A DNA stretch of 64,000 bases from Tatumella citrea (lineage in GTDB: Bacteria > Pseudomonadota > Gammaproteobacteria > Enterobacterales > Enterobacteriaceae), in assembly GCF_002163585.1 (NCBI RefSeq), contig NZ_CP015579.1, forward strand, positions 3,472,001 through 3,536,000, in the 5' to 3' direction. Below the pieces are notes generated by a model. That model was not told the DNA's origin, did no database searches, and saw nothing but the letters and a program-made list of their open reading frames with translations. Shown piece after piece: positions 33,576 through 51,448 of this stretch. How positions within the stretch are numbered: position 1 is the stretch's first letter; each line of letters opens with the position of its first letter. Made by a program: the position numbers and the translations under genes.

Positions 33576-34295
33576 ATGCAGACCCCGCAAATTCTTATCG
33601 TCGAAGACGAGCTAGTAACCCGAAATACTTTAAAGAGTATTTTCGAAGCTGAAGGATACATCGTATTCGAAGCCTCTGATGGTGCTGAAATGCACCAGTT
33701 ATTGACTGACAATGATGTCAATCTGGTGATAATGGATATCAACCTGCCAGGTAAAAACGGCCTGCTGCTGGCTCGCGAGCTCCGCGAACAGGCAAGCGTA
33801 GCGCTGATGTTCCTGACAGGGCGTGACAATGAAGTCGACAAGATTCTTGGGCTGGAGATCGGTGCGGATGATTACATCACCAAACCGTTTAATCCACGTG
33901 AACTGACCATTCGTGCACGTAACCTGCTGTCCCGTACCATGAATCTGGCGGTCAGCAGTGAAGAACGTAAGCATGTGGAAAATTACCAGTTTAACGGCTG
34001 GACACTGGATATTAACAGCCGTTCTCTGGTCAGCCCGCAAGGCGAGCAGTACAAACTGCCACGTAGTGAATTCCGTGCCATGCTGCACTTCTGTGAGAAT
34101 CCGGGAAAAATTCAGACCCGCGCTGACTTGCTGAAGAAAATGACCGGCAGAGATCTGAAACCTCACGATCGTACGGTGGATGTGACCATCCGTCGTATTC
34201 GTAAGCATTTCGAGTCAAACAGTGATACCCCGGAGATCATCGCTACGATCCACGGTGAAGGTTATCGTTTTTGCGGTGAGTTAGAAGATAACTAA
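33576..34295 (+). CDS. arcA: Aerobic respiration control response regulator ArcA
   Basis: OmpR/PhoB-type regulator of the ArcBA two-component system that represses respiratory genes under low oxygen. The 239 aa (E. coli 238) consist of a receiver domain (residues 1-120) with acidic Glu10-Asp11, phosphorylated Asp54 ([12 protein letters not shown]), the Thr of MFLTGRD and the Lys of DDYITKPF. A winged-helix domain follows ([35 protein letters not shown]). It starts [12 protein letters not shown] like E. coli. A terminator separates it from convergent creA. Confidence 0.98.
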
Positions 34296-34322
34296 CTTCC
34301 CGGATGCGGACTGTTTTACGCT

Positions 34323-34354
34323 GCCCGTCGGTCTGATGACCGGCGGGCTTTTTT
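34323..34354 (+). terminator. Intrinsic terminator of arcA
   Basis: GCCCGTCGGTC-TGAT-GACCGGCGGGC followed by TTTTTT, 28 bp after the arcA stop. One T-G pair in the stem. Confidence 0.88.
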
Positions 34355-34372
34355 ACATTTTGTGCGACACCC

Positions 34373-34861
34373 TTAGTGCCATGGCATGATTGGGACAGCG
34401 CTGATCGCATTTTTTGGCGAACCATCGACCAGTTTGTCAGAATAGCTCAGATATACCAGTGTATTCCGTGTTTTGTCATAAAAACGAACAACCTGAAGTT
34501 TCTTAAATATCAACGAGGTACGTTTTTTAAATACCACGTCTGACTCCCCTGGTTTCAGGTTGTCAGGAATAGTTACCGGTCCGACCTGCTGACAGGAAAT
34601 GGCGGCATCTGCCGTATCTTCAGCCAGACCCAGTCCGCCTTTTATACCTCCGGTTTTAGCCCGGCTGATATAACATGTAACATTTTTAACATCTGGATCA
34701 TCAAAGGCTTCGATTACAATCTTGTGATCCGGACCAAGTAATTTAAAAACGGTATCTACAGAGCCAATTTCCTCAGCATGTACCATGCCATTAAGAGCAA
34801 AAAGTACACAGCCGGCTGCCGCAAATTTGTTGATAAAAAACTGTAGTTTTTTGATTTTCAT
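34373..34861 (-). CDS. creA: CreA family periplasmic protein
   Basis: A 162-aa protein (E. coli CreA 157 aa). Residues 1-29 form a signal peptide ([26 protein letters not shown]). The mature domain has the family's [49 protein letters not shown] and [17 protein letters not shown]. Two cysteines (CYISRA, CQQVG) may pair. Function is unknown. In E. coli creA heads creABCD; here creB, creC and creD do not follow, and creA is convergent with arcA and divergent from rob. Confidence 0.93.
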
Positions 34862-35068
34862 TAAGTTACCGCTTATTAGGTGATTACTGAATAATCAATA
34901 TAAGGTTACTATTGATACCTTCAAGTGTTCCTTTGTCGCACTGAATTATTGTAACAACAGGAAACGGTATATTTGCGCCCTTTCCTGTTTTTTTTGCATT
35001 TAATGCTACTCTTAGCTTTATGAAGGTTGCCTGATCAATTATGCCAACCAGGACTGTGAGGATGTAAT

Positions 35069-35953
35069 ATGGACCAAGCTGGTATCATTCGCGATTTGCT
35101 TGTCTGGCTGGAGAGCCATCTGGACCAACCCTTATCTCTGGATAATGTTGCCTTTAAGGCCGGATACTCCAAATGGCATTTACAGCGGATGTTTAAGAAC
35201 GTAACAGGTCATGCTATTGGCGCTTATATCCGGGCCAGACGCCTGTCTAAAGCTGCTGTTGCACTGAGACTTACCAGTCGCCCAATTCTGGATATTGCGC
35301 TGCAATACCGGTTTGATTCTCAGCAAACGTTCACCCGTGCATTTAAAAAACAGTTCAATCAGACACCTGCTGGTTATCGCCGTGCCTCTGACTGGAATTC
35401 CTTTGGGTTACGTCCACCAATTCGTATGGGCGAGTTTTCTATGCCTCAGCCAACGTATGTCACGTTGCCGGAAACCACGCTGATGGGGCAAACTCAAAGC
35501 TACAATTGTACTCTGGAACAGATTTCTGTTTATCGTGCGGAAATGCGCGGCCATTTTTGGCGCCAGTTCCTGCACGATACCGATGCGCCGCATATTTTAT
35601 ATGGACTGCATCAGGTGAAAAGTAGTGCAGATAAAGAAGACGAGCAGGAAATTCTTTACACCACTGCAGTCACCGAAAACGATTCAGGGCAGAGCCTGCA
35701 ATCAGCACAGAAGATCATTCTGGAAGGTGGTGAATACGTTCAGTTCAGCTACAAAGGTCCTAAAGAACAACTCCAGGACTTTATCCTGGTATTGTACAGC
35801 ACCTGTATGCCAACCCTTGGGCTGACCCGACGTGCCGGACAGGATATTGAACGCTTCTATACCCCGGGTGGCAAACTGACCAAAGAAAATACCGCAGAAC
35901 TGACCTGCGAATATTTGATCCCTATTCGCAACGAAGCCCGACGCGTTGCCTGA
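35069..35953 (+). CDS. rob: AraC/XylS-family right-origin-binding regulator Rob
   Basis: Transcription activator of the mar/sox/rob stress regulon. The 294 aa (E. coli 289) carry an N-terminal AraC-type double helix-turn-helix (LDNVAFKAGYSKWHLQRMFKNVTG and ILDIALQYRFDSQQTFTRAFKKQFNQTPAGYRR, residues 20-105). A C-terminal GyrI-like small-molecule-binding domain follows from about residue 125. The DNA-binding domain at the N-terminus, followed by a GyrI-like domain, distinguishes Rob from MarA and SoxS. It is adjacent to creA and gpmB as in E. coli. Confidence 0.96.
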   Translation: MDQAGIIRDLLVWLESHLDQPLSLDNVAFKAGYSKWHLQRMFKNVTGHAIGAYIRARRLSKAAVALRLTSRPILDIALQYRFDSQQTFTRAFKKQFNQTPAGYRRASDWNSFGLRPPIRMGEFSMPQPTYVTLPETTLMGQTQSYNCTLEQISVYRAEMRGHFWRQFLHDTDAPHILYGLHQVKSSADKEDEQEILYTTAVTENDSGQSLQSAQKIILEGGEYVQFSYKGPKEQLQDFILVLYSTCMPTLGLTRRAGQDIERFYTPGGKLTKENTAELTCEYLIPIRNEARRVA

Positions 35954-35960
35954 CCACTAA

Positions 35961-35992
35961 CATACCCCGGGATTCACAGAATCCGGGGTATG
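35961..35992. terminator. Bidirectional terminator between rob and gpmB
   Basis: CATACCCCGGGATT-CACA-GAATCCGGGGTATG: long near-perfect stem between the convergent genes, 8 bp after rob and 4 bp before the gpmB stop. The T-run is weak (TTATTT). Confidence 0.7.
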
Positions 35993-35996
35993 TTAT

Positions 35997-36644
35997 TTAA
36001 CGCTGTAGTTCATCCAGAGCGTCAGCCGTTAAATGAGCCACATCTCCGGCAGTTTCCACCACCCAGCCATTAGCCAGCCATTCACTGTGCTGATAATCCA
36101 CTCTGGAAAGCGAGCAGTTACGTAGCCGCAAGCGCCGCTCAGCAAAAGCCGGTAACCCCAGCAAAGTACTGATTAACGTTCCCAAAGCCATACCATGGCT
36201 GACCAACACCGGGCGACTGCCAGACGGTAACTCACGACAGGCATCCAGCGCCTGATGCATACGGCCGGCCAGTTCAGTCATACTTTCCCCGCCGGGGATC
36301 CGCCCATTTTCAGTGCCATCCACTAACGACTTACGCCAGCCTTCTTCTTCAGCAGACAACTCGCTCAGACGACGGGTTTCCAGTATTCCCATATTCAATT
36401 CCCGTAACCGACTGTCGGTCACTATCGGGCACTGGCAATACTGCGCAATAATTTCCGCAGTCTGGCGGGTCCGGCCTAAATCACTGCTGATGATATGCGT
36501 GATACCATAAGACTGAAGCCGCTCTCCCACCTGCTTTGCCTGTTGCTCTCCTTGTACGGTTAATGGGCTATCGCTTTGTCCCTGCAGACGACGTTCGGTA
36601 TTCCACAGGGTTTCACCATGACGAACCAGAAAGACTTGTAGCAT
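35997..36644 (-). CDS. gpmB: Phosphoglycerate mutase-like phosphatase GpmB
   Basis: A 215-aa histidine-phosphatase family member (the same length as E. coli GpmB). The phospho-histidine is His9 in LVRHGETLWN; further motifs are SSDLGRTRQTAEII, LRELNMGILE and the second histidine in VSHGMALGTLIS. Family members act on phosphoglycerate-like or sugar phosphates; genuine mutase activity of GpmB is doubtful. It is divergent from yjjX, as in E. coli. Confidence 0.93.
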   Translation of the reverse strand: MLQVFLVRHGETLWNTERRLQGQSDSPLTVQGEQQAKQVGERLQSYGITHIISSDLGRTRQTAEIIAQYCQCPIVTDSRLRELNMGILETRRLSELSAEEEGWRKSLVDGTENGRIPGGESMTELAGRMHQALDACRELPSGSRPVLVSHGMALGTLISTLLGLPAFAERRLRLRNCSLSRVDYQHSEWLANGWVVETAGDVAHLTADALDELQR

Positions 36645-36701
36645 GTTACCTATCCATTATACTGAGTCAGTGCAACCATCTGCCCTGAGAGTTTAACTAT
36701 T

Positions 36702-37238
36702 ATGTACCATGTTGTCGCCGCTACCAGCAACCCGGCAAAAATCAGCGCTATCCTACAGGCATTCGAAGATGTTTTTGGTGCCGGCCAATGCCAGATTTCG
36801 GGTTCAGAAACTGACAGCGGTGTTTCAGCGCAACCGATGAGTGATGAAGAAACGCTTAAAGGTGCCCGTCAGCGCGTTGCTAATGCCCGTCATCGTCAGC
36901 CCGAAGCAGATTTCTGGGTAGCGATTGAAGCCGGTATTGACGGTCAGCAGGCATTCGCCTGGATGGTGATAGAAAATGCTTCACAGCGGGGTGAATCGCG
37001 TTCTGCCAGTTTCTTATTACCCGCGGCAGTCTCTGAACAACTCCATCAGGGGCGGGAGCTCGGAGATGTGATGGCACAACTGACCGGCATCGATAATATC
37101 AAACAAAAAGGGGGAGCGATTGGAGCACTGACTGAAGGCCGGCTGACCCGGACCTCCGTTTATCATCAGGCTTTATTGCTGGCGCTATGCCCGTTGCTGC
37201 ACCCTTACTACAATCAGTCACCACTCAGCGACAGCTGA
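36702..37238 (+). CDS. yjjX: Non-canonical purine NTP phosphatase (inosine/xanthosine triphosphatase)
   Basis: A 178-aa ITPase-fold protein (E. coli YjjX 170 aa) that removes ITP and XTP from the nucleotide pool. The N-terminal [47 protein letters not shown] and [10 protein letters not shown] motifs are characteristic. Its last 25 bases overlap the end of trpR on the other strand, so the two transcripts are convergent and overlapping. Confidence 0.94.
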
Positions 37239-37531
37239 TGTTCCAGCCATTGACGAAATACAGCCGGTGACTCCTTGAGGCTGTTAGAACCCCGGGTAAT
37301 GGTGGCAATTCCAACGCCCAGTTGATCTTTTAACTGCCGTTGGCTCAGTTCACCACGCATCAGTTCTTCAATAATTCTTAACCGGGTCGCCAACGCTTCC
37401 CGTTCATCCGGAGTCATCATCAGTTGCAGTAACGCCTCTGTCTGCTGATCGTCCACTGCCTGCTTCAGTAAGCTGACAACACGAGGCCAGTTAAACTCAA
37501 AATTTTCTTCTGCATTGGCAGTGGGCAACAT
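37214..37531 (-). CDS. trpR: Trp operon repressor
   Basis: Tryptophan-activated repressor. The 105-aa all-helical protein (E. coli 108) has the conserved [53 protein letters not shown] helices, split here at the helix-turn-helix [19 protein letters not shown]. It is downstream of slt on the same strand and has its own operator at 37543. Confidence 0.96.
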
Positions 37532-37542
37532 AGACGGCTTCC

Positions 37543-37560
37543 GTACTCATTGATGAGTAC
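37543..37560 (-). promoter_or_regulatory. TrpR operator of trpR
   Basis: GTACTCATTGATGAGTAC, a perfect palindrome except for the central pair, 12 bp before the trpR ATG. E. coli trpR has an equivalent operator (GTACTC....GAGTAC), so autoregulation is expected. Confidence 0.82.
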
Positions 37561-37575
37561 AGAAGCATAGCATAC

Positions 37576-39495
37576 TCAGTAGCGGCGATTCCACTCTGTA
37601 TCCTGTAACAGTTTGCCCGGCTGTCCCATGAAATAACGATAGTAGGCATCATAAGCCAGCACATTTTTCACATAGTTACGTGTTTCGGCAAAAGGAATGG
37701 TTTCAATAAACCCGACAGCATCCAGCTTACCCCCACTCACTGCCAGCCACTTCCTGACTCTGCCAGGACCAGCATTATAGGCCGCAGAAGAGAAAATACG
37801 GTTATCGTCAAACTGACGGTACACGTAATCCAGATACTGCATCCCGATCTGGATATTCATCTGCGGATCTAACAGCTGGCTACTGTTCACGTAATTACTG
37901 ATCGGGAACATTTTGACAGTATGCGCCGCAGTCGCGGGCATTACCTGCATTAGCCCGCTGGCACCGACCGGCGAGCGAATTTTTGGGTTCCATGCACTTT
38001 CCTGTCGCGAAATGGCCATCGCATAACTCACCGGGATGGCTTTCCCGGCAGAATATTGTTGATAGTACTGCTGCCAAGCCAGCGGGAAACGCTCCTTCAG
38101 GCTGTCCCACATTTTGGCGGTAATGGTGGCCTGAACACTCAGATCCCACCAGTCCTGCTCGCTGGCATAGCGAGCCAGCATCTTCTGTTGTTCCAGGGGT
38201 TTGCTGCTGATAAGGTTAGCCCATTCACTTCGGGCCAGATTATCCATTCCCCAGTACATCAGTTCTCTGACACGGCTAATCTCTGCGCCGCTGGCAACTG
38301 CGGCGGTCGGTGCAGGTGCCGGATCAATCGTCAGTTTATAAGGTACACCCAGTTTTTGGGCCGCAACCATAGGATAGAAACCACGTTTCTGTGTCAGCTG
38401 GCTGAGAAGTTCATCGCCTTCCTGTTTACGGCCCTGCTCCAGTAACAGACACGCCTGCCAGTATTGCCACTCATCCTTTTGTTTAGCCTCGACAGGTAAC
38501 CGGGCGATCCAGGTATTCAGGCCCCGGTGATCATTATCCGAAATCGCCTGGCGGATACGTCGCTCGATGAGTGACGTAGAATCACTGTCCATCACAACAG
38601 CATCCCGCCAGCGCATCTGTTCCGTCGTCACATCGCTGCCCATAAATTGCCAGGCCACTGACTCTTTCATGGCCTGAGCTTCAGAATCAGACATTTTCTG
38701 GGCCGCCACCAGCACCGGGATCAGTGAGCGGGCATTTTCGGCATCCTGTCGTGCCAGCCGGCTGAAAGCAATCAGGGTTATCTGCCGACTGAAATCCCCG
38801 GGGGCCACCGTAGTGGCAAAACTGCTGACCGTCTGCGGGTTTTGTCCCAGCGTCGAAAGGGCTGTGGCAACGGTTGCATAATTTACCGGCAGCATGGTGA
38901 TCAAATGACGCACCAGCGAATCATTCCCCTCTTTAAAGGCCAGGATCACACGCTGTAAAACAGCCTGCGGACTGAATTGTGCCGATGACTGCCAGGCAGT
39001 AAACAGTGCATCGCAACTGTCGGGTAAGTTGGCCCCGGTCAGCCATAATTTTTTCGCGCCTTCCCAGGCCAGTTGCCGGTTGCCGGTCGCCCAGTTGGCG
39101 TAATACCAGTTACATTGTGCCTGTACCGGTGCCGGACGGGTTGGACTGAAGCTTAATAAGCCCTGCCAGTCCTGGCGTCTTGCCAGTTCATTGATAAAGC
39201 GGTTTTTCAGACTGCGGGCGGAAGGCAATGTCGGGTACTGGTTGGCAAAATTGGTAATTGCCAGAGAGGTTTCCTGATTCAAATCCTGGGACAGTAGCCG
39301 GTATTCAAGGTAAGGATAAAGCGGGTAATCTTTCAGTGACGGCATCATCTGCGCCACAACATCCATTTGATTGTTATCCCAGGCCTGCTTAATTTGCTGG
39401 TATCGCAGACGCTGTTGATCCAACGAGTCTGCCTGACTGAGACCGGCAACCCCTGTCAGACAGAGACCCAATACCCAATGCTTCCAATTAATCAC
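37576..39495 (-). CDS. slt: Soluble lytic murein transglycosylase
   Basis: Periplasmic exo-lytic transglycosylase that releases 1,6-anhydromuropeptides. The start is a GTG at 39495 with GAGGAG upstream, giving a clean signal peptide (NWKHWVLGLCLTGVAGLSQA, then DSLDQQRLRYQQIKQAWD). The frame runs further upstream but without a better start. The 639 aa (E. coli 645) have the long helical superhelix and a C-terminal catalytic domain with the active Glu in ISRQESAWNPKIRSPVGASG, then LMQVMPATA and SSAAYNAGPGRVRKWL. trpR follows. Confidence 0.96.
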   Translation of the reverse strand: MINWKHWVLGLCLTGVAGLSQADSLDQQRLRYQQIKQAWDNNQMDVVAQMMPSLKDYPLYPYLEYRLLSQDLNQETSLAITNFANQYPTLPSARSLKNRFINELARRQDWQGLLSFSPTRPAPVQAQCNWYYANWATGNRQLAWEGAKKLWLTGANLPDSCDALFTAWQSSAQFSPQAVLQRVILAFKEGNDSLVRHLITMLPVNYATVATALSTLGQNPQTVSSFATTVAPGDFSRQITLIAFSRLARQDAENARSLIPVLVAAQKMSDSEAQAMKESVAWQFMGSDVTTEQMRWRDAVVMDSDSTSLIERRIRQAISDNDHRGLNTWIARLPVEAKQKDEWQYWQACLLLEQGRKQEGDELLSQLTQKRGFYPMVAAQKLGVPYKLTIDPAPAPTAAVASGAEISRVRELMYWGMDNLARSEWANLISSKPLEQQKMLARYASEQDWWDLSVQATITAKMWDSLKERFPLAWQQYYQQYSAGKAIPVSYAMAISRQESAWNPKIRSPVGASGLMQVMPATAAHTVKMFPISNYVNSSQLLDPQMNIQIGMQYLDYVYRQFDDNRIFSSAAYNAGPGRVRKWLAVSGGKLDAVGFIETIPFAETRNYVKNVLAYDAYYRYFMGQPGKLLQDTEWNRRY

Positions 39496-39667
39496 ATGCT
39501 TCTCCTCTTTTCCCCGGCACATATCAGCAGACCCGCTGACAGTCTTCCATGCTAGCGGGTTAAATGATGACTTACTATCATCTGCCAAAAATTTACTCAG
39601 TCTGACGTTCACTGGCACGTTTGAGTGTAAAAGCATTGCACAAATTTGCACCATTCGAAGGCGGCCC

Positions 39668-39685
39668 TGCGCCAAAAATGGTCAA
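39668..39685 (+). promoter_or_regulatory. NtrC-like binding site upstream of the urea operon
   Basis: TGCGCCA-AAAA-TGGTCAA matches the NtrC (GlnG) consensus TGCACCA-N4-TGGTGCA at 11 of 14 positions. Its centre is about 98 bp upstream of the start site predicted from the sigma-54 promoter, a normal enhancer distance. A further TGCACCA half-site is at 39647-39653. Confidence 0.55.
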
Positions 39686-39748
39686 CCTTGCTGATTACGT
39701 CATTCGCCACAATTCATTTAATCAATAAATTTCATTAAGTTACAACTA

Positions 39749-39764
39749 TGGCACGCTCTTTGCT
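39749..39764 (+). promoter_or_regulatory. Sigma-54 (RpoN) promoter of the urea operon
   Basis: TGGCACG-CTCT-TTGCT matches the sigma-54 consensus TGGCACG-N4-TTGCW at every position, with correct GG/GC spacing (-24/-12). The start site would fall near 39775, about 27 bases before the atzF ATG. Confidence 0.85.
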
Positions 39765-39771
39765 CAGATGA

Positions 39772-39793
39772 ATACCATCTGGTATACATGATG
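39772..39793 (+). promoter_or_regulatory. Candidate GntR operator over the urea operon start site
   Basis: Two overlapping dyads: ATACCA-TC-TGGTAT (39772-39785) and CATC-TG-GTATAC-AT-GATG (39776-39793). TGGTATAC-type centres are common in operators of FadR/FCD GntR proteins, and a GntR gene of that type is in the operon. The location over +1 fits repression. Confidence 0.55.
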
Positions 39794-39801
39794 GAATTCA
39801 T

Positions 39802-41601
39802 ATGACCTCTTTAAGCGCAGGACTTACTCTTGGACAGTGGACTCACCATTGTCAGCAACACCCTCAGCAGCTGGCTGAAATTCTGAATCAATGGCTGGCA
39901 ACGTTTGATCCACAGGATCCGGCATGGATAAGTGTCGCGACTCCGGCACAAATCACTGCACAGGTCAGCGAAATTCTGCCACGTTTTCTGCAGGATCCAA
40001 CCTCGCTGCCACTGTTCGGCGTCCTGTTTGCGGTTAAAGATAATATTGATGTTGCCGGTTTTAACACCACCGCCGCCTGTCCCGCGTTCAGTTATGTGGC
40101 CGACAATGATGCTGAAGTAATAGCCCGTCTGAAGTCTGCCGGGGCCATTGTGGCCGGAAAAACCAATCTCGATCAGTTTGCCACCGGACTGGTCGGCACC
40201 CGTTCACCTTATGGTGAAGTACCTAACAGCTTTGATCCGGATTATGTCAGCGGCGGTTCCAGTTCTGGTTCTGCATCGGTGGTAGCACGCGGCCTGGTGC
40301 CTTTCTCTCTGGGAACAGATACTGCCGGTTCAGGACGTGTTCCGGCCGGGTTTAACAATATTGTCGGTCTGAAACCAACCAAAGGTTGGCTCTCTGCCTC
40401 CGGCGTGGTCCCTGCCTGTCGTCTGATTGATACTATTTCAGTGTTTGCACTCACCACCGAAGATGCCTGGCAGGTAGCCAGCCTCGCCGGGGGTTATGAC
40501 AGCGGAGACAGCTATTCACGGTCTTCTCCCCATACCGCGCCAGCTGCCTTGCCGGCCTCCCCTAAGTTTGCCATTCCTGCCAATCCGGAATTCTTTGATG
40601 ATGAGCAGGCTCGTGCCGCCTGGGAAGCCGCATTAACCGACCTGCAAACCTGCGGTGCCACGTTGTCGGCTATTGATTTCACACTGTTTCACCGGCTGGC
40701 AGAACAGTTGTACAACGGCCCGTGGGTTGCTGAAAGAACCGCGGCCGTTGGTGAGATGTTACAGAATCCGGACAAACTCGACCCGGTGGTCTACGGCATT
40801 GTCAGGCAGGGTGAGAAATTCTCAGCTACCGATGCCTGGCGGGCTGAATATCTGCGTTCCGAACTGAGCCGTCAGATTCAGCAAACTCTGGCACAGTTCG
40901 ACGGACTGGTGGTCCCGACTTCACCCACTATCCGCACCCGCCAGCAAATGCAGCAGGAACCGGTGAAATACAACGCTCAGTTTGGTACCTACACCAATTT
41001 TACTAATCTCGCCGATCTCTGTGCGCTGGCCCTGCCAGCAGGTTTTCGGGCCGACGGACTGCCCGCCGGAATCACGCTGATTGCTCCTGCCTGGTATGAC
41101 CGGGCCCTGGCTGGTTTTGGCTTACGCTGGCAACAGCAACAACAACTGCCTCTGGGTGCCACCAGACTGCCTGCACCAGAGTCAGCGGTTTCTCTGCCGG
41201 CATCTGCTGATCATGTACGCATCGCGGTCGTCGGTGCGCATCTGACTGGTATGCCTCTCAATTATCAGCTCACCTCCCGCCAGGCGGTTCTGGTGGAAGA
41301 AACCACCACTGCTGCGCATTACCGCCTGTATGCCCTGAGTGGCGGAGCGATTAAAAAACCAGGTCTGGTTCGCGATGACAGTGGCGCTGCCATTATCGTC
41401 GAACTCTGGGATATCCCCCTGGCCCGTTATGGCGAGTTTGTTGCCGAGATCCCGGCACCTTTAGGAATTGGCACCCTGACGCTGGCCGACGGGCGCACTG
41501 TTCAGGGATTTGTCTGCGAACCTTATGCACTGAGTAATGCCCTCGATATCACCGAAACAGGTGGCTGGCGCCGCTGGTTAAGCTCACAGGAGACCCGTTA
41601 A
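39802..41601 (+). CDS. atzF: Allophanate hydrolase (urea amidolyase second enzyme)
   Basis: Hydrolyses allophanate to ammonia and CO2. The 599-aa protein has an N-terminal amidase-signature domain with Lys79 (FAVKDNIDV), Ser153 (GGSSSGS) and the nucleophile Ser177 (GTDTAGSGR), giving the Ser-cisSer-Lys triad. A C-terminal domain of about 120 residues (VRIAVVGAHLTGMPLNYQL to DITETGGWRRWL) is typical of AtzF/DUR1 allophanate hydrolases and absent from plain amidases. It starts with a modest ribosome-binding site and is first in the operon; the next gene begins 2 bp after its stop. It works together with the urea carboxylase. Confidence 0.95.
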   Translation: MTSLSAGLTLGQWTHHCQQHPQQLAEILNQWLATFDPQDPAWISVATPAQITAQVSEILPRFLQDPTSLPLFGVLFAVKDNIDVAGFNTTAACPAFSYVADNDAEVIARLKSAGAIVAGKTNLDQFATGLVGTRSPYGEVPNSFDPDYVSGGSSSGSASVVARGLVPFSLGTDTAGSGRVPAGFNNIVGLKPTKGWLSASGVVPACRLIDTISVFALTTEDAWQVASLAGGYDSGDSYSRSSPHTAPAALPASPKFAIPANPEFFDDEQARAAWEAALTDLQTCGATLSAIDFTLFHRLAEQLYNGPWVAERTAAVGEMLQNPDKLDPVVYGIVRQGEKFSATDAWRAEYLRSELSRQIQQTLAQFDGLVVPTSPTIRTRQQMQQEPVKYNAQFGTYTNFTNLADLCALALPAGFRADGLPAGITLIAPAWYDRALAGFGLRWQQQQQLPLGATRLPAPESAVSLPASADHVRIAVVGAHLTGMPLNYQLTSRQAVLVEETTTAAHYRLYALSGGAIKKPGLVRDDSGAAIIVELWDIPLARYGEFVAEIPAPLGIGTLTLADGRTVQGFVCEPYALSNALDITETGGWRRWLSSQETR

Positions 41602-41603
41602 TC

Positions 41604-44600
41604 ATGTTTGATACCGTACTGATTGCTAACCGTGGTGAAATTGCCTGCCGTGCGTTGAAAACTCTGAAACGTCTGGGAATTCGTAGCGTCACTGTCTATT
41701 CCGATGCAGATAAAAACGCCCCGCATGTGAAAGAGGCTGACGAGGCAATTGCCCTTGGCGGTGATAAACCGACTGACAGTTATTTGTCGATAGAGAAAAT
41801 TTTACAGGCGGCCCGACAGAGTGGCGCCCAGGCTATCTGGCCGGGATACGGATTTTTATCAGAAAGCCTGCCTTTTGCTGCTGCCTGTGAAGAAGCAGGG
41901 ATCGTGTTTATTGGTCCTACCGCCCATCAGATTGGCGAGTTTGGATTAAAACACCGCGCCCGCGAACTGGCTGCTGCTGCCGGAGTCCCCATGACTCCGG
42001 GAACTCCATTGCTGAATTCACTACCGGAAGCCTTGCAGGCTGCCGCTACTATCGGCTATCCGGTGATGTTGAAAAGCACCGCCGGCGGCGGTGGCATTGG
42101 CATGACCCGCTGTGCCGATGAAGCAGCCTTATCCGATGCATGGGAAGGTGTCCGTCGTCTGGGCGCACAATTCTTCAATGATGCGGGTGTTTTCCTCGAA
42201 CGTTGTATCGATCAGGCCCGGCATATTGAAGTACAGATTTTCGGAGATGGTCAGGGCAAGGTCGTTGCCCTGGGAGAACGCGATTGTTCTCTGCAACGCC
42301 GCAACCAGAAAGTCGTCGAGGAAACGCCTGCCCCTCACCTGCCGCCAGAAACACGCCGTACGTTACTGGAAAGTGCGGTCAGACTTGGTGAGAGTGTGAA
42401 TTATCGCAGTGCAGGTACAGTCGAATACATCTATGACGGCGCTCAGGATAAATTCTATTTCCTGGAAGTGAATACCCGGTTACAGGTAGAACACCCGGTA
42501 ACTGAATCAGTCACCGGATTGGATCTGGTCGCCTGCATGTTGCAGGTCGCCGCCGGCGAAACTCCGGACTGGCAGGCCATGGCTAAAGCTCCGCAAGGGG
42601 CAGCTATCGAAGTTCGCCTGTATGCAGAAGACCCGCTGAAAAACTTTCAGCCCTCACCCGGTACACTGACCGATGTCAGCTTCCCGGATAATGTGCGGGT
42701 CGATGGCTGGGTGAGTACCGGCACGGAAGTTTCCGCCTGGTACGATCCACTGCTGGCAAAACTGATTGTTCATGCCGATACCCGTGAAGCTGCCTGGGAA
42801 AAATTACGTCAGGCCCTGTCAGAAACCCGGATTCAGGGGATTGCTTCAAATCTCGACTATCTGCGTCAGGTCATTAATACCCGTGAGTTCCGCGAAGGGC
42901 GCAGCTACACCCGCTTCCTCGATAAATTTACCGCCAATGCCCATGTGGTGGAAGTGATTCAGCCAGGTACCTGGAGCTCGGTGCAGGACTATCCGGGCCG
43001 CCCGGGCTACTGGGATATCGGCGTTCCGCCTTCCGGCCCGATGGATGATTATGCCTTCCGGCTGGCTAACCGAATTGTAGGTAATGCGCCGGAAGCAGCA
43101 GGGCTGGAATTTACTCTGCAGGGACCCGTTTTAAAATTCCACTGCGATTGCGTTATCGCGTTGACCGGAGCCCCTTCAGAAGCAACCCTGGATGATGAGC
43201 CGGTCGCATTCTGGCAGCCAGTGACCGTAAAAGCAGGTCAGACTCTGGTACTTGGTCGTGCCACTTCCGGTTGCCGTACCTGCCTTGCCATCCGCCACGG
43301 TTTTGATGTCCCGGTCTATCTGGGCAGCCGCTCAACCTTTGCCCTGGGACAGTTTGGGGGCCATGCAGGACGAATTTTACGCCAGGCAGATATGCTGCCG
43401 GTATCACAACCAGAATTACCTGCCTGCACTACACCACCCGCTATCAGTGAACCGCAGGCTCTGCCGACAGAGATGATTCCGGAATACGGTAATCACTGGC
43501 AGATTGGGGTGTTATATGGCCCGCATGGTGCTCCGGACTTTTTTACCCCACAGGCGATCGATACCTTCTTTGCGACCGACTGGGAAGTGCATTACAACTC
43601 AAACCGGTTGGGTGTCCGGCTGAGTGGCCCTAAACCCGAGTGGGCGCGGGAAAACGGCGGCGAAGCCGGCCTGCACCCTTCTAATGTGCATGACTGCGAA
43701 TACGCCATTGGTGCCATTAACTTTACCGGTGATTTCCCGGTCATCCTGACCCGTGACGGACCGAGCCTCGGTGGTTTTGTCTGCCCGGTGACAATTGCCA
43801 GCGCCGAGCTATGGAAAGTCGGTCAGGTCAAACCCGGCGATAAAATCCGCTTCTATCCGATCAGTTTTGATGAAGCTCAGGCGCTGGAAACGGCCTGCAA
43901 TCAGCAAATTGAACAGCTTACACCCGCAGCGATACCAGAATTTTCTCCGGTTAATCTGCAACCCACTGACGGAGTTCCGGCGACCGCACTGGCTGCATTA
44001 CCGGCACAAGGGGACCGTCCGTCTGTGGTCTACCGTCAGGCGGGTGATCATTACATCCTGATCGAGTATGGCGACAACGTCCTGGATCTGGCGTTACGCC
44101 TTCGGATTCATCTGCTGATTGAAGCGATTCGTCAGCAGGCGATCCCGGCGATCCGCGAACTGTCCCCGGGTGTTCGTTCATTACAGATCCGCTATGACAG
44201 CCTGCAGTTATCACAGAAAGCACTGATTGACCTGCTGCTGGAGCTGGAAACCTCGCTCGGTGATGTCAGCGAGCTGAAAGTCCCTTCACGTATTGTCTGG
44301 CTGCCAATGGCTTTTGAAGACAGCGCAACCTTAGACGCGGTCAGCCGTTATCAGCAGACCGTCCGTCAGCAGGCGCCGTGGTTGCCGAATAACGTTGATT
44401 TCCTGCAACGGACCAACGGGTTGGAAAGCCGTGAGGAAGTTAAACGCATTCTGTTTGATGCCAGCTATCTGATTCTTGGCCTGGGCGATGTCTATCTGGG
44501 AGCCCCTTGTGCAGTCCCCGTAGATCCGCGCCACCGGCTGCTCAGTTCAAAATATAACCCTGCCCGCACCTTTACTGCCGAAGGTACTGTCGGTATCGGC

Positions 44601-45233
44601 GGCATGTATATGTGTATTTATGGGATGGATTCGCCGGGTGGATACCAGTTGGTGGGCCGTACGCTGCCTATCTGGAACAAATATCTGAAAAACGATCAGT
44701 TCGCCGCCGACGAACCCTGGTTATTACATTTCTTCGATCAGGTGCGTTTCTATCCGGTCACTGAAGATGAATTACTGCAACTGCGTGATGATTTCCGTGA
44801 AGGCCGTGCCAGCGTGCGCATCGAGGAAAGTGAATTTGATTACGCAGCCCATCGCCGTTTCCTGGCAGAAAACGCGGACTCTATTAACCAGTTTAAAGAG
44901 CGCCAGGCCACTGCTTTTGCTGAAGAAGTGGAGTTGTGGAGCCGCGAAGCGCTGAACTCTCCGTCAGAAGACGATCAGCCTCTGGTCGCCGAAGAAGATA
45001 CCGCAGGATTATTGCCGGTCAATGCCGACCTGAATGGCAGTGTCTGGAAAGTCCTGGTGTCACCAGGCGACACCATCGTTGCCGGTCAGCCAGTAGTGAT
45101 TGTGGAAGCGATGAAAATGGAACTGACCATCAGTTCACCTGCCGCAGGTGTGGTCAGCCAGATTGCATGCCAGCCAGGGCGCCAGGTTGCTCCGGGGGAT
45201 GTGCTGCTGTGGTTAGCCGGGGAGGAGCAATGA
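41604..45233 (+). CDS. uca: Urea carboxylase (biotin-dependent)
   Basis: Carboxylates urea to allophanate using ATP and bicarbonate. The 1209 aa show, in order, a biotin carboxylase domain (residues 1-445: [49 protein letters not shown]), then a KipA/AHS2-like part (about 450-780: [34 protein letters not shown]). A KipI/AHS1-like part (about 810-1090: [45 protein letters not shown]) and a biotinyl domain with Lys1171 in VEAMKMELT complete it. This is the carboxylase portion of yeast DUR1,2. Related proteins that act on guanidine usually travel with carboxyguanidine deiminase genes, which are missing here; urea is therefore the likelier substrate. Confidence 0.94.
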   Translation: [1209 protein letters not shown]

Positions 45234-45937
45234 GTTCTGTGAGTAACAGCAATAAATCACGACCAGAAGCACTGGCTTCGCGGGTTTATCAGGCAGTGAA
45301 GGACGATATTTTCGACTTCCGTTTACTGCCGGGTGATCGCTTCAGTGAAAACGATATTGCTGAAAAAATGCAGGTCAGCCGGACCCCGGTCCGGCAGGCA
45401 CTCTACTGGCTGGCCCATGAAGGCTACCTGGAGGTCTATTTCCGCAGTGGTTGGCAGGTTAAACCGTTCGATTTCGAGTATTTCGAAGAACTGTACGACT
45501 TCCGTACCGTTCTGGAATGTGAAGCCGTGCGCCGGTTGTGCCGTTTACCGGCAGAGCAGTGCCGCCAGGCATTAACCGAACTGCAAAATTTTTGGATTGA
45601 TACGCCACCGCTGCCACTCAGTGATGGCAAGGAAATCTCAGCCTGTGATGAAGAGTTTCATCGCGGGTTACTGGATGCGGCAGGAAACCGTGAAATGGCG
45701 AAAGTCCATGCGATTGTCACCGAGAAAATTCGCATCATCCGTCGTCTGGACTTTACCCGCGAAGACAGGATCAGTGCCACATACCGGGAACACGCCCTGA
45801 TTTTAAACCAGATTTTTCAACAAAACAGCGAGGAGGCACAGCTACTGCTCACCAGGCATATCGCAGAGAGTAAAGCGGAAGTCCGCAAAATAACACTACA
45901 CATGTTACAGCAGGCAAGAACATCACCCGAGTCATAA
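45230..45937 (+). CDS. GntR-family (FCD/FadR-type) transcriptional regulator
   Basis: A 235-aa regulator. The start is the ATG at 45230, which overlaps the uca stop (ATGA) and has GGGGAGGAG upstream; the frame extends into uca but without such a site. Residues 15-80 form a winged helix-turn-helix (LASRVYQAVKDDIFDFRLLPGDRFSENDIAEKM, VSRTPVRQAL, LAHEGYLEV). The rest is an all-helical FCD ligand-binding domain with metal-ligand-like residues (DEEFHRGLLDAAGN, EHALILNQIF, LLLTRHI). Its place between the catabolic and uptake genes makes it the likely local regulator, possibly responding to a pathway intermediate. Confidence 0.92.
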   Translation: MSSVSNSNKSRPEALASRVYQAVKDDIFDFRLLPGDRFSENDIAEKMQVSRTPVRQALYWLAHEGYLEVYFRSGWQVKPFDFEYFEELYDFRTVLECEAVRRLCRLPAEQCRQALTELQNFWIDTPPLPLSDGKEISACDEEFHRGLLDAAGNREMAKVHAIVTEKIRIIRRLDFTREDRISATYREHALILNQIFQQNSEEAQLLLTRHIAESKAEVRKITLHMLQQARTSPES

Positions 45938-45959
45938 TTCGCTTATCAGGGGTATTACA

Positions 45960-47228
45960 ATGAAAAGACGTTCATTACTTAAAGCTTTTGCTCTCTCCGC
46001 TACTGTCGTCAGTATGGGGGTCAGTCTCGGTGCTTATGCTGCCGACACTATCAAAGTCGGGATTATGCATTCACTCTCCGGCACCATGGCGATTTCAGAG
46101 ACGCCGTTGAAAGATGTGGCTCTGATGACCATTGATGAAATTAATGCGCACGGTGGTGTGCTGGGTAAAAAACTGGAGCCAGTGGTGGTTGACCCTGCAT
46201 CCAACTGGCCATTGTTCGCCGAAAAAGCCCGTCAGTTACTGAGCCAGGATAAAGTTGCTGTCGTCTTCGGTTGCTGGACCTCGGTATCACGTAAGTCCGT
46301 TCTGCCGGTATTTGAAGAACTTAATGGTCTGCTGTTCTACCCGGTGCAGTATGAAGGCGAAGAGATGTCACCGAACGTCTTTTATACCGGAGCGGCACCA
46401 AACCAGCAGGCAATTCCGGCAGTACAGTACCTGATGAGCGAAGATGGCGGCAATGTTAAACGCTTCTTCCTGCTTGGTACTGACTATGTCTATCCGCGTA
46501 CCACCAATAAAATCCTGCGTGCCTATCTCCATTCCAAAGGGGTTCAGGATAAAGATATTCAGGAAGTTTATACCCCGTTTGGTTACAGCGATTACCAGAC
46601 CATTGTTTCCAATATCAAAAAATTCTCTGCCGGTGGTAAGACTGCGGTTATCTCCACCATTAACGGCGATTCCAACGTTCCGTTCTACAAAGAGCTGGCT
46701 AACCAGGGCATAAAAGCTACCGATATTCCGGTCATGGCCTTCTCGGTAGGTGAAGAAGAGCTGCGTGGTATTGATACTAAACCTCTGGTTGGTGAACTGG
46801 CTGCCTGGAACTATTTTGAATCTCTGGATAACCCGGTAAACGCTAAATTTGTTGCCGATTACCGTGCCTATGCCAAAGCTCACCATCTGCCAAACGCTGA
46901 CTCCGTAGTTACCAATGACCCGATGGAAGCGACCTACGTCGGCATCCATATGTGGGCTCAGGCAGTCGAGAAAGCCGGCACCACCGATGTGGACAAAGTT
47001 CGTGCAGCAATGGCCGGACAGACGTTTAAAGCGCCGGATGGATACACTCTGACCATGGACCAAACCAACCACCACCTGCATAAACCAGTGATGATTGGTG
47101 AAGTTGAAGCCAACGGCCAGTTTAACGTGGTCTGGCAGACCGACGGTACCGTACGTGCTCAGCCGTGGAGCCCGTATATTGCCGGGAACGACAAAAAACC
47201 TGATACCCCGGTCAAAGGTACGTTCTGA
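45960..47228 (+). CDS. urtA: Urea ABC transporter substrate-binding protein
   Basis: A 422-aa periplasmic binding protein of the branched-chain amino acid/amide family. The N-terminus MKRRSLLKAFALSATVVSMG resembles a Tat signal (RR-x-LLK) and ends at GAYA, before ADTIKVGIMHSLSGTMAISETPLKD. The stretches GCWTSVSRKSVLPVFEELNGLLFYPVQYEGEE and DYVYPRTTNKI are characteristic of UrtA-type urea/short amide binders. It starts 22 bp after the GntR gene. Confidence 0.95.
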   Translation: MKRRSLLKAFALSATVVSMGVSLGAYAADTIKVGIMHSLSGTMAISETPLKDVALMTIDEINAHGGVLGKKLEPVVVDPASNWPLFAEKARQLLSQDKVAVVFGCWTSVSRKSVLPVFEELNGLLFYPVQYEGEEMSPNVFYTGAAPNQQAIPAVQYLMSEDGGNVKRFFLLGTDYVYPRTTNKILRAYLHSKGVQDKDIQEVYTPFGYSDYQTIVSNIKKFSAGGKTAVISTINGDSNVPFYKELANQGIKATDIPVMAFSVGEEELRGIDTKPLVGELAAWNYFESLDNPVNAKFVADYRAYAKAHHLPNADSVVTNDPMEATYVGIHMWAQAVEKAGTTDVDKVRAAMAGQTFKAPDGYTLTMDQTNHHLHKPVMIGEVEANGQFNVVWQTDGTVRAQPWSPYIAGNDKKPDTPVKGTF

Positions 47229-47310: not shown

Positions 47311-48888
47311 ATGATCACACTACGCCGCGTTTTCTGGTCATTACTGTGGTTAACACTGTGCCAGCCATTACTCGCCAGTGCCGGTCCTGCGGCAGATTTT
47401 GCCGCCGCCAGCCGCACACAGCAGGCCACATTGTTACAGCAGTGGGCTGCCGCACCTGATGAACATTTACTGCCACTACTGAATGCATTACATAATGAGA
47501 ATGTGGTAACAGATGAGAACAAGCAGCCTTTCAGTAAAACCGGCGACAAACTGGTGCCACTGGACAGTGCACAACAGCCTACCGGCAATACCCGTAAATT
47601 GCTGATGAACAACCGGCTGCGAATTCTGACCTCCCGCGCCTTGTCAGCTATCGAACTAACCAGCCATGATCCGGCACTCCGTCTGCTGGCCGCACGGCAG
47701 TTACAGAATGATGTAGCCAGCGATCAGCTACCACTAATGCAACAACAGTTGCAGAAAGAAACTAACCCGCAGGTTCGCGATGCCCTGTCACAGGCAGTAG
47801 CCCTGCTGCAACTGACTAATCCTCAGGCGGAAGTGCGCCTGCAGGCAGTGAAACTGTTAGGTCAGGCCAGTAACCCTGATGTACAGGCCAGCCTGCAACC
47901 TCTTACTCAGGCATCAACCGAACCGGATGCGAAGGTACGCCAGGCTGCAGCTGACAGCCTGCAGCAGATCCACCATCGACTGATGTGGGGTGACTGGCTC
48001 GGTCAGGCATTTAGTGGCCTGTCTCTTGGTTCCATACTGCTGCTGGCAGCACTTGGTCTCGCCATTACCTATGGCCTGCTGGGGGTGATTAATATGGCCC
48101 ACGGCGAAATGCTGATGATAGGTGCTTATACCACCTGGATGATCCAAAGCCTGTTCCAGCAATGGGCACCACAATGGCTGGCATGGTATCCAATACTGGC
48201 GCTGCCGGCCGCCTTCCTGCTGACTGCCGCTATCGGCATGATCCTTGAACGTACTATTATTCGTCACCTTTATGGCCGCCCGCTGGAAACACTGCTGGCT
48301 ACCTGGGGCATCAGCCTGATTCTGATCCAGGGAGTCCGGATACTGTTCGGCGCGCAGAACCTGGAAGTTGCTAACCCGGGTTGGTTATCCGGAGGCTGGC
48401 AGGTGTTACCGAACCTGGTACTGCCTTATAACCGGATTGCCGTCATTGTGTTTGTGGTTGGTGTGCTGCTGCTCACCTGGCTGCTGCTCAACAAAACCCG
48501 GCTCGGACTGAATATCCGTGCCGTTACCCAAAACCGCGCAATGGCTGACTGTTGCGGAGTAGCTACCGGCAAAGTGGATATGCTGGCGTTTGGCCTGGGT
48601 TCCGGCCTGGCCGGTCTGGGAGGCGTCGCCTTATCTCAGTTAGGTAATGTCGGTCCGGAACTGGGACAAAGTTATATTATTGATTCCTTCCTGGTAGTGG
48701 TGGTCGGTGGTGTCGGGCAGCTGGCAGGAACCGTGGCAGCCGCACTGAGTCTGGGTATTCTGAATAAAGTGCTGGAACCGCAGGTCGGTGCTGTGCTGGG
48801 TAAAATCATCATCCTGCTGGCGATTATCCTGTTTATCCAGAAACGTCCTCAGGGGCTGTTCGCTGCTAAAGGGAGGGTCATTGACTAA
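47311..48888 (+). CDS. urtB: Urea ABC transporter permease UrtB
   Basis: A 525-aa permease. A signal peptide (to about LLASAG) and a periplasmic helical-repeat domain of about 200 residues (LRLLAARQLQNDV, VRLQAVKLLGQASNPDVQASL) come first. A LivH-type membrane domain follows from about residue 230 (AITYGLLGVINMAHGEMLMIGAYTTW, VVVVGGVGQLAGTVAAALSLGI). The long N-terminal domain is normal for UrtB and distinguishes it from LivH. Its stop overlaps the urtC start by one base. Confidence 0.95.
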   Translation: MITLRRVFWSLLWLTLCQPLLASAGPAADFAAASRTQQATLLQQWAAAPDEHLLPLLNALHNENVVTDENKQPFSKTGDKLVPLDSAQQPTGNTRKLLMNNRLRILTSRALSAIELTSHDPALRLLAARQLQNDVASDQLPLMQQQLQKETNPQVRDALSQAVALLQLTNPQAEVRLQAVKLLGQASNPDVQASLQPLTQASTEPDAKVRQAAADSLQQIHHRLMWGDWLGQAFSGLSLGSILLLAALGLAITYGLLGVINMAHGEMLMIGAYTTWMIQSLFQQWAPQWLAWYPILALPAAFLLTAAIGMILERTIIRHLYGRPLETLLATWGISLILIQGVRILFGAQNLEVANPGWLSGGWQVLPNLVLPYNRIAVIVFVVGVLLLTWLLLNKTRLGLNIRAVTQNRAMADCCGVATGKVDMLAFGLGSGLAGLGGVALSQLGNVGPELGQSYIIDSFLVVVVGGVGQLAGTVAAALSLGILNKVLEPQVGAVLGKIIILLAIILFIQKRPQGLFAAKGRVID

Positions 48889-49964
48889 TGAGCCAGCCAA
48901 TTACTGTCACCATAGGCAAAAAAATGCCGGTACTGACGCTGACGCTGGTCAGTGTGGTCCTGCTGGCATTGCTGATTATGCCGTTTCTTAGTTTACTTCC
49001 GGCCAGCAATCCGCTGTCAGTCTCGACTTATACTCTGACACTGTGCGGTAAGATCCTCTGTTATGCCATCGTTGCCGTCGCCCTGGATCTGGTTTGGGGC
49101 TACGCAGGGATGCTGTCGCTGGGTCACGGGCTGTTCTTTGCATTGGGGGGCTACGCTATGGGGATGTACCTGATGCGTCAGGCCTCTGGTGACGCCCTGC
49201 CGGCCTTTATGTCGTTTCTCTCCTGGGACCATCTGCCCTGGTTCTGGACCGGAACTCAGTCATTTATCTGGACGTTATGCCTGATTGTGTTGTTGCCTGG
49301 CGGGCTGGCTGCGTTATTTGGTTTCTTTGCTTTTCGCTCAAAAATCAAAGGGGTCTACTTTTCGATCATGACTCAGGCACTGACCTACGCCGGAATGCTG
49401 CTGTTCTTCCGTAACGAGACCGGATTTGGCGGCAATAACGGATTCACCGGCTTCACCACACTGCTCGACTGGAAGATTGATGCCACAGGAACCCGTATTG
49501 CGCTGTTTATGGCCACAGTGATTCTGCTGGCGTTATCACTGCTCACTGGCTTCCTGCTGGCGCGCAGTAAATTCGGCCGCATTTTGACGGCAGTGCGTGA
49601 CGCCGAAAACCGTCTGATGTTTTGTGGTTATGACCCACGCGGTTTCAAATTATTTATCTGGACCCTGTCGGCCGTCATGTGTGGCCTGGCCGGGGCACTC
49701 TATGTTCCGCAGGTTGGAATCATCAACCCGGGAGAAATGTCACCGACTAACTCAATTGAAGCCGCAATCTGGGTAGCACTCGGCGGCCGCGGCACACTGA
49801 TTGGCCCGGTGTTAGGTGCGGCGATTGTTAACGGGGCGAAGAGCTGGTTTACCGTCAGTTTCCCGGATTACTGGCTGTTTTTCCTCGGCCTGATGTTTAT
49901 TGTGGTTACCCTGGTTCTGCCACAGGGTGTTGTCGGGCTGTTGCGCCGGAGGAAAAATGACTGA
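48888..49964 (+). CDS. urtC: Urea ABC transporter permease UrtC
   Basis: A 358-aa LivM-type inner-membrane permease. It has about eight to ten membrane segments and the family pieces VALDLVWGYAGMLSLGHGLFFALGGYAMGMYL, ETGFGGNNGFTGFTTLL, RSKFGRILTAVRDAENRLMFCGYDP and WVALGGRGTLIGPVLGAAIVN. It pairs with UrtB. The start overlaps the urtB stop (TAATG) and its end overlaps urtD by 8 bp. Confidence 0.95.
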   Translation: MSQPITVTIGKKMPVLTLTLVSVVLLALLIMPFLSLLPASNPLSVSTYTLTLCGKILCYAIVAVALDLVWGYAGMLSLGHGLFFALGGYAMGMYLMRQASGDALPAFMSFLSWDHLPWFWTGTQSFIWTLCLIVLLPGGLAALFGFFAFRSKIKGVYFSIMTQALTYAGMLLFFRNETGFGGNNGFTGFTTLLDWKIDATGTRIALFMATVILLALSLLTGFLLARSKFGRILTAVRDAENRLMFCGYDPRGFKLFIWTLSAVMCGLAGALYVPQVGIINPGEMSPTNSIEAAIWVALGGRGTLIGPVLGAAIVNGAKSWFTVSFPDYWLFFLGLMFIVVTLVLPQGVVGLLRRRKND

Positions 49965-50748
49965 TCAAATTTATACCCACAGCTCACCGGCCGACCGGCA
50001 TCGTCAGCAAACCGATCCGGTGTTGCAGCTGGAAAATATTTCGGTGACATTCGACGGTTTTCGCGCCCTGAATAACCTGTCGCTGAATATCGGCGTCGGG
50101 GAACTGCGTTGCGTTATCGGGCCGAATGGTGCCGGTAAAACTACCCTGATGGATGTTATCACCGGTAAGACCCGGCCGGACGAGGGCAAAGTAGTGTACG
50201 ACCAGCGTACCGATCTGACACGCTTGTCACCCTCAGAAATTGCCCGCGCCGGTATTGGCCGTAAATTTCAGAAACCAACCGTGTTTGAAGCGCTAACCGT
50301 GTTCGAAAATCTCGAAATTGCACTGAAAGCACCAAAAACCGTGGCGGCCTCATTGCGGGCCAGACTGAACGGAGAGCAACAGGACAGAATCGCCTCGACT
50401 CTGCAATTGCTCCGTCTGTCAGACCAGCAACAACGGCTGGCAGGGTTGTTATCGCACGGACAAAAACAGTTTCTCGAAATCGGTATGCTGCTGGTTCAGG
50501 AACCCCATCTGTTGTTGCTGGATGAACCCGCCGCAGGGATGACCGATGCAGAAACAGAATACACCGCTGAGTTATTCCGCGAGCTGGCAGGAAAACACTC
50601 ACTGATGGTGGTGGAGCACGATATGGGATTCGTCGAAACTATCGCCGACCATGTCACAGTCCTGCATCAGGGGCAGGTACTGGCAGAGGGTTCTCTGCGT
50701 GAAGTACAGGCCAATGAACACGTTATTGACGTATACCTGGGGCGCTAA
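49957..50748 (+). CDS. urtD: Urea ABC transporter ATPase UrtD
   Basis: A 263-aa LivG-type ATPase. The start MTDQIYTHSS at 49957 follows GGAGG and overlaps the end of urtC. Walker A is GPNGAGKTTL, the ABC signature is the variant LLSHGQKQFLEIG (LSHGQ, usual for UrtD), Walker B is LLLLDEPAAGM, and the switch histidine is in MVVEHDMGFVE. It energises UrtBC with UrtE. Confidence 0.95.
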   Translation: MTDQIYTHSSPADRHRQQTDPVLQLENISVTFDGFRALNNLSLNIGVGELRCVIGPNGAGKTTLMDVITGKTRPDEGKVVYDQRTDLTRLSPSEIARAGIGRKFQKPTVFEALTVFENLEIALKAPKTVAASLRARLNGEQQDRIASTLQLLRLSDQQQRLAGLLSHGQKQFLEIGMLLVQEPHLLLLDEPAAGMTDAETEYTAELFRELAGKHSLMVVEHDMGFVETIADHVTVLHQGQVLAEGSLREVQANEHVIDVYLGR

Positions 50749-50749
50749 C

Positions 50750-51448
50750 ATGTTACAGATTGCCGAATTACATCAGTATTATGGCGGCAGCCATATTTTG
50801 CGCGGCCTGTCGTTTGAAGTGCCTGTCGGTCAGGTGACCTGTTTGCTGGGTCGCAACGGGGTTGGTAAAACCACCCTGCTGCGTTGCCTGATGGGGCTGT
50901 TACCCGTGAAGTCAGGCACTATCCACTGGCAGCAACAGCTGCTTAATCAGCGTAAACCCCACCAGCGGGTCAATGCAGGCATTGCCTGGGTACCGCAAGG
51001 GCGTGAAATTTTTCCACGTCTGACGGTAGAAGAAAACCTGCTGTTGGGTATGTCACGCTTTTCAGCCCGCGAGGCACGTCACGTCCCGGAAGATATTTAT
51101 CAGCTGTTCCCGGTACTAAAGGAGATGAAACATCGTCGTGGCGGGGATCTCTCCGGAGGCCAGCAGCAGCAACTGGCAATTGGCCGTGCGCTCGCCAGCC
51201 GCCCGCAATTACTCATCCTCGATGAACCGACAGAAGGTATTCAGCCTTCGGTGATTAAGGAAATTGGCCAGGTTATTAAAATGCTGGCTCAGCGTGGTGA
51301 TATGGGGATTTTACTGGTTGAGCAGTTCTATGACTTTGCCGCTGAACTGGCGGATCAGTATCTGGTGATGTCCAGAGGCGAGATTATTCAACAAGGCTCT
51401 GGCGCAGATATGGAAAAGGATGGAGTCAGAAAACTGGTGGCAATTTAG
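50750..51448 (+). CDS. urtE: Urea ABC transporter ATPase UrtE
   Basis: A 232-aa LivF-type ATPase. The start MLQIAELHQYYGGSHILRG begins one base after the urtD stop; the frame extends upstream inside urtD without support. Walker A is GRNGVGKTTLL, the signature LSGGQQQQLAIGRAL, Walker B LLILDEPTEGIQPS, and the stretch AWVPQGREIFPRLTVEENLLLG is typical for LivF/UrtE. Last gene of the operon, followed by a terminator. Confidence 0.95.
   Translation: MLQIAELHQYYGGSHILRGLSFEVPVGQVTCLLGRNGVGKTTLLRCLMGLLPVKSGTIHWQQQLLNQRKPHQRVNAGIAWVPQGREIFPRLTVEENLLLGMSRFSAREARHVPEDIYQLFPVLKEMKHRRGGDLSGGQQQQLAIGRALASRPQLLILDEPTEGIQPSVIKEIGQVIKMLAQRGDMGILLVEQFYDFAAELADQYLVMSRGEIIQQGSGADMEKDGVRKLVAI

Follow-up and report, generated by a model that had tools for sequence, protein, structure and literature searches.

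The eight-gene urea amidolyase/Urt operon carried by the 64,000-nucleotide stretch of DNA analysed here (the window; C1:3472001-3536000 of a 4.49-Mb genome) is in all likelihood served by a two-signal promoter, at which NtrC- and sigma-54-dependent activation would be gated by autorepression from a GntR-family regulator encoded within the operon. An initial annotation of this DNA had proposed a sigma-54 promoter activated by nitrogen limitation through NtrC; it was right on the sigma-54 promoter and, by the family evidence, on NtrC, to which the fuller picture adds a well-supported, though predicted, autoregulatory GntR protein. Ntr control would be only half of the circuit, because a GntR operator that is at least equally conserved appears to lie on the start site. 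The arrangement represents a compact and widely conserved control unit for ATP-dependent urea use in enterobacterial relatives, for which a candidate regulator and operator can be named.

Profile matches bear out the gene content that had been read from the sequence, namely atzF, uca, a GntR regulator, and urtABCDE. Curated NCBIfam cut-offs are passed by seven of the eight genes, the exception being the GntR regulator, and AtzF is 96% identical to that of Tatumella morbirosei, the nearest named relative found. The genes are arranged as follows:

39802..41601, + strand: atzF, allophanate hydrolase (TIGR02713, 805 bits against a cut-off of 511)
41604..45233, + strand: uca, urea carboxylase with Asn at residue 706 (NCBIfam match and alignment column)
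45230..45937, + strand: GntR-family regulator with an FCD domain (PF00392 and PF07729)
45960..47228, + strand: urtA (NCBIfam cut-off passed)
47311..48888, + strand: urtB (NCBIfam cut-off passed)
48888..49964, + strand: urtC (NCBIfam cut-off passed)
49957..50748, + strand: urtD (NCBIfam; start set by family alignment)
50747..51448, + strand: urtE (NCBIfam; start set by family alignment)

The uca and gntR genes overlap by 4 bp, and we infer that one transcript spans all eight genes and that all eight would be under Ntr control. Comparisons drew on 392 genomes sampled from a family-level group, in which a related atzF (E <= 1e-60) was present in 127 genomes and in 48 of the 154 sampled genera. 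Loci were fetched for 120 of the 127 atzF-positive genomes; the window's own genome was read directly, and those not fetched were G072 and five genomes with fragmentary or divergent atzF matches (G236, G316, G377, G387, and G388). The fetched loci comprise 108 in which atzF comes first and 12 in which a carboxylase 44-48% identical to that of the window comes first. The full eight-gene order is found in 86 of the 108 atzF-first loci, and part of the rest end at a contig boundary or are missing genes.

The region upstream of atzF contains the following elements, scored against the sigma-54 consensus TGGCAC-N5-TTGCW and the 17-bp NtrC consensus TGCACYAN3TRGTGCA; transcription from a sigma-54 promoter starts about 12 nt after the GC of the -12 element:

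39637..39653, + strand: possible extra NtrC-like dyad, uncertain, overlapping the distal one (10/14)
39647..39663, + strand: distal NtrC-like dyad TGCACCATTCGAAGGCG (10/14 to the 17-bp consensus)
39668..39684, + strand: proximal NtrC-like dyad (17-bp register, 9/14; distance to the distal dyad 21 bp)
39749..39764, + strand: sigma-54 -24/-12 element TGGCACGCTCTTTGCT (11/11; conserved)
39770..39799, no strand: 30-bp near-palindrome GAATACCATCTGGTATACATGATGGAATTC, core GTATAC, probable operator for the GntR protein encoded in the operon (conservation, co-movement)
39774..39776, + strand: predicted transcription start (from the position of the sigma-54 element)

The sequence TGGCACG-CTCT-TTGCT at 39749-39764 fits the RpoN consensus at every position, exactly as had been claimed. 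It is the only exact match in the window, the other three listed having one mismatch each, and because the four matches found at up to one mismatch equal the chance expectation (3.66), the significance of the element rests on its conservation. Across the whole genome there are 14 exact matches, and 270 at up to one mismatch compared with 83 for a reversed control pattern. An element scoring at least 9/11 occupies the same place before atzF in 106 of the 108 atzF-first loci, 53 of them exact, against a background in which 10/11 is reached at 4 of 145,520 other plus-strand positions around the same genes. The two misses are L081 (7/11) and L076 (8/11), the latter counting against the proposal in that its genome encodes rpoN and ntrC. 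None of the 12 carboxylase-first loci has the element, the best reaching at most 8/11 within 400 bp upstream. The sigma-54 promoter is very likely real, judged from motif and conservation, and the window's genome encodes rpoN (537 bits against a cut-off of 277). A simple scan of the plus strand from 39400 to 39801 found no sigma-70-like site.

The initial annotation made no mention of the 30-bp palindrome at 39770-39799, which sits downstream of the -12 element and ahead of the atzF start codon, over the predicted start. Aligned as the best match to its 18-bp core (at least 12/18), the palindrome is found in 108 of 109 promoters, where it begins 26 or 27 nt from the T of TGG and in every one of the 108 carries GT(A/G)TAC. 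Calculated without gaps, mean pairwise identity over the -24/-12 element is 0.72 and over the palindrome 0.55, compared with 0.29 for the enhancer zone and 0.26 for sequence far upstream. No second copy of the palindrome was found in the window's genome, the next-best operator matches there carrying three mismatches.

The palindrome is probably bound as an operator by the FCD-type GntR protein that the operon itself encodes, a reading that rests on four lines of evidence. In G218 and G350, gntR lies outside the operon (its product 74% and 73% identical to that of the window) and is preceded by a sigma-54 site (10/11) and the palindrome. In G142 (L223) and G305 (L227), urtB has a sigma-54 site and palindrome of its own, together with 9-10/14 dyads at -101/-80 and -102/-81; in G305 an opposite-strand ORF of 746 residues separates urtA from urtB. 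Co-loss is seen in G037 (L081/L237), a 1.4-Mb genome that keeps atzF and uca (the carboxylase 72% identical and in an open frame) with no urt genes at that locus. Its promoter has neither sigma-54 element nor palindrome, and no match was returned in this genome for gntR (E <= 1e-25), rpoN (0.001), or ntrC (1e-160), although a more diverged ntrC may be present; this would be a naturally deregulated urea amidolyase, possibly in a symbiont. Finally, when up to two mismatches are allowed, the operator is matched in 110 of the 113 genomes carrying the close type of atzF, compared with 4 of the 14 that carry the other type and 27 of the 265 that have no atzF. G208 is a counter-case, in that the palindrome is retained there although no gntR match reaches E <= 1e-25. 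Viral contigs scanned for the GntR protein yielded nothing informative.

A precedent for such an operator is Atu1419 of Agrobacterium fabrum, an FCD (VanR-group) repressor with a solved DNA complex that, in the accessible part of its description, binds ATGTATACAT (PMC7797058). Like the window's GntR protein, Atu1419 is a PF07729 regulator with a GTATAC-centred palindrome; unlike the longer 30-bp palindrome on the sigma-54 start site of the window, the palindromes of Atu1419 overlap -10 boxes.

The dyad TGCGCCA-AAAA-TGGTCAA at 39668 is present, scores 11/14 as had been stated, and has its centre some 98 bp ahead of the predicted start, also as stated; that score, however, needs a 4-bp spacer and an 18-bp site (39668-39685), and the canonical 17-bp register at the same position scores 9/14. 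Searching the window with the 17-bp pattern TGCACCN4TGGTGCA at up to three mismatches returned 26 sites, against 25.9 expected, and the dyad at 39668 was not among them. Nor is the 18-bp form favoured as the functional one by the comparative set (the 106 loci whose sigma-54 score is 9/11 or better plus the window, n=107, leaving out L076 and L081), in which dyads of at least 11/14 with a 4-bp spacer occur in 3 of 107 promoters compared with 2.8 in shuffles.

The comparison that had been suggested, for loss of both motifs in relatives keeping the operon, supported the initial annotation: beside the widely retained sigma-54 element, 47 of the 107 promoters have a dyad of at least 11/14 with the canonical 3-bp spacer, where dinucleotide shuffles yield 1.3 on average. 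With spacers of 0, 1, 2, 4, 5, 6, and 7 bp the counts are 7, 19, 3, 3, 4, 15, and 1; those for spacers 1 and 6 are also above their own shuffles, perhaps from neighbouring half-sites. Across this set, dyads are concentrated around -80 and -102 from TGG. Tandem dyads separated by 21 or 22 bp are found in 69 of the 107 promoters, compared with an expectation from mononucleotide shuffles of about 0.1 for each spacing; pairs with a spacing of 13 are also prominent (20 against 1.2). The window's distal dyad, at -102 from TGG, is at a position where relatives have dyads, and the pair at 39647 and 39668 occupies conserved positions but is weak (10/14 and 9/14). Activation under nitrogen limitation is supported, with the single 18-bp dyad giving way to this weak tandem pair and with the overlooked probable GntR operator added.

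NtrC control of the window promoter is supported mainly by these relatives, a comparative argument from motifs. Within the window's own genome, which encodes ntrC (808 bits against a cut-off of 559), a dyad of at least 11/14 accompanies four of the 14 exact sigma-54 sites, the window's not among them, and several probably unrelated exact sites have dyads of 8-10/14, compared with the window's best of 10/14. As controls, a promoter near ntrC, which we take to be that of glnA, carries strong dyads (13/14 and 12/14) 33 bp apart, whereas those of the window are weak and 21 bp apart, and a 13/14 dyad lies before a LysR-type gene. The overall layout, a sigma-54 element with NtrC dyads upstream, is that of the enterobacterial glnA-type Ntr promoters.

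Sequence and comparison directly show the elements themselves, how nearly fixed their spacing is, how well they are conserved, and that they move and are lost together with the regulator genes. In the circuit that they suggest, phosphorylated NtrC would bind the tandem sites at 39647 and 39668 when nitrogen is limiting and would activate sigma-54 RNA polymerase at 39749-39764. The in-operon FCD-type GntR protein, predicted to act as a repressor rather than an activator, would bind 39770-39799 over the start site until released by a metabolite of the urea pathway as its presumed ligand. Because gntR lies within the operon, repression would also amount to autoregulation.

Part of this circuit could be read differently if the operon were under plain Ntr control and the palindrome were an element of the mRNA leader or ribosome-binding site rather than a repressor operator. 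The palindrome does overlap the presumed leader and ribosome-binding region before the start codon, but its invariant part, GT(A/G)TAC, is the centre, which would be the loop in RNA. Since the window's leader folds no better than shuffled sequences (z 0.20) and the palindrome recurs before relocated gntR genes, a hairpin is not favoured, and we regard this reading as the most improbable of those considered. An operator is the preferred interpretation.

An enhancer-binding protein other than NtrC might drive the sigma-54 promoter, given that the genome has other matches of this kind and that the dyads in the window are weak. We think this improbable, because what is enriched in relatives is the NtrC dyad at canonical spacing, ntrC (E <= 1e-160) is matched in 126 of the 127 atzF-bearing genomes (the exception being G037), and no enhancer-binding-protein gene is found among the eight genes of the operon. 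The NtrC sites might also have decayed in this Tatumella lineage with loss of tight Ntr control over the operon, as the contrast between 9-10/14 in the window and 12/14 in the same-genus G098 (L077) could suggest; against this, the sigma-54 element is exact, the operator is intact, and the half-sites remain in the conserved register 21 bp apart, leaving such decay with a very small share of the likelihood. NtrC activation combined with GntR repression is the interpretation retained below.

Related regulation of urea genes has been described in other bacteria. Excerpts of published work report that urea carboxylase and urtB fall by 6.0 and 5.9 log2 units in a Burkholderia cenocepacia ntrC mutant (PMC5491218), and predicted NtrC regulons include atzF in Rhizobiales and urt genes in Alteromonadales, Oceanospirillales, Rhizobiales, and Rhodobacterales (PMC5343134, accessible part). 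The accessible portions of these two reports do not name an enterobacterial atzF-uca-gntR-urt operon or describe a GntR operator at its promoter. Among the open-access titles, abstract openings, and passages covered, no description of the enterobacterial promoter or GntR operator was found, which is weak evidence with most subscription papers lying outside them; a possible precedent, GntR together with NtrC on Klebsiella purine genes, did not appear there either and is not relied on.

The substrate of the operon can be addressed through the carboxylase. A published rule, as given in the available part of PMC12186494, separates guanidine from urea carboxylases by Asp or Asn at one residue, which we infer to be the alignment column at window residue 706; here Asn is present in 100 of 100 operon carboxylases and Asp in 7 of 7 guanidine-type enzymes. 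The same source describes guanidine carboxylase operons with a paralogous carboxylase and allophanate as a shared intermediate. Unlike these, the window shows no riboswitch match between 34000 and 54000, no UAAP gene among the eight, and Asn rather than Asp in the carboxylase. Control by a guanidine riboswitch was rejected, given that Rfam at gathering score gives no such match from 34000 to 54000 and that residue 706 is Asn. At the seven guanidine-type loci, Guanidine-II exceeds the gathering score in four and lies just under it in three, and UAAP1/UAAP2-like genes are found at all seven (by tblastn, one locus being checked by family model). The two gene sets are separated by their control DNA, the urea type having sigma-54 and GntR operator elements and the guanidine type a riboswitch.

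Five genomes (G057, G184, G344, G097, and G208) keep atzF with the sigma-54 (9-10/11) and palindrome module, four of them with gntR, and lack the operon's uca and urt genes at the atzF locus. Elsewhere in these genomes the best carboxylase match, 53-54% identical, is of guanidine type, and in G184 the atzF match is split. Similarly, G087 (L124) has atzF-gntR-urtABCDE with a guanidine-type carboxylase as the only one in the genome. If GntR is still functional in the uca-less genomes, one would expect it to respond to a ligand shared by the two pathways, and allophanate is our favoured guess as inducer. A GntR protein that senses allophanate, so that firing of the NtrC/sigma-54 promoter would require both nitrogen shortage and the intermediate, is suggested by the five genomes that keep the atzF module alongside a guanidine-type carboxylase, whose pathway also yields allophanate; we put it forward tentatively, at rather less than an even chance. 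Were it true, the operon would be a bacterial counterpart of the yeast DAL/DUR genes, in which nitrogen catabolite repression is combined with allophanate as specific inducer (PMC4589623, in excerpt), although the yeast proteins are unrelated and the bacterial inducer is only guessed. The FCD residues D140, H144, H188, and H210 are at least 97% conserved among 102 sequences and align with D/H residues of TM0439 (3sxy), a metal-binding FCD protein according to the accessible part of PMC7797058. As a lead, this resemblance to a metal site would suit a carboxylate ligand.

The regulon may extend beyond urea genes. In G308 (L224) and G151 (L226), a 10/11 sigma-54 site and palindrome precede a transporter gene, whose product in G308 is SsuA-like and below the family cut-off; this SsuA-like ABC transporter operon may be a second target. 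An operator match in G365:C126 may be a third case of the urtB type. Six extra operator matches were judged by ORF order only; those in G071 (L225) and G002 (L228) are near other genes and may be sites of other regulators, and those in G344 (L229), G215 (L230), and G268 (L232) are in or beside unrelated ORFs.

Some rearrangements and features of the structural genes deserve mention. In G350 (L093), a broken uca continues into urtC as though the intervening stretch had been deleted, while the promoter elements are kept. The N-terminal region of the window's UrtB (47311-48888), some 230 residues long, has HEAT-repeat matches and precedes the permease domain. By eye, the gap between urtA and urtB (47228-47311) contains a G+C-rich inverted repeat, gacccgc...gcgggtc, which perhaps sets urtA above the other urt genes.
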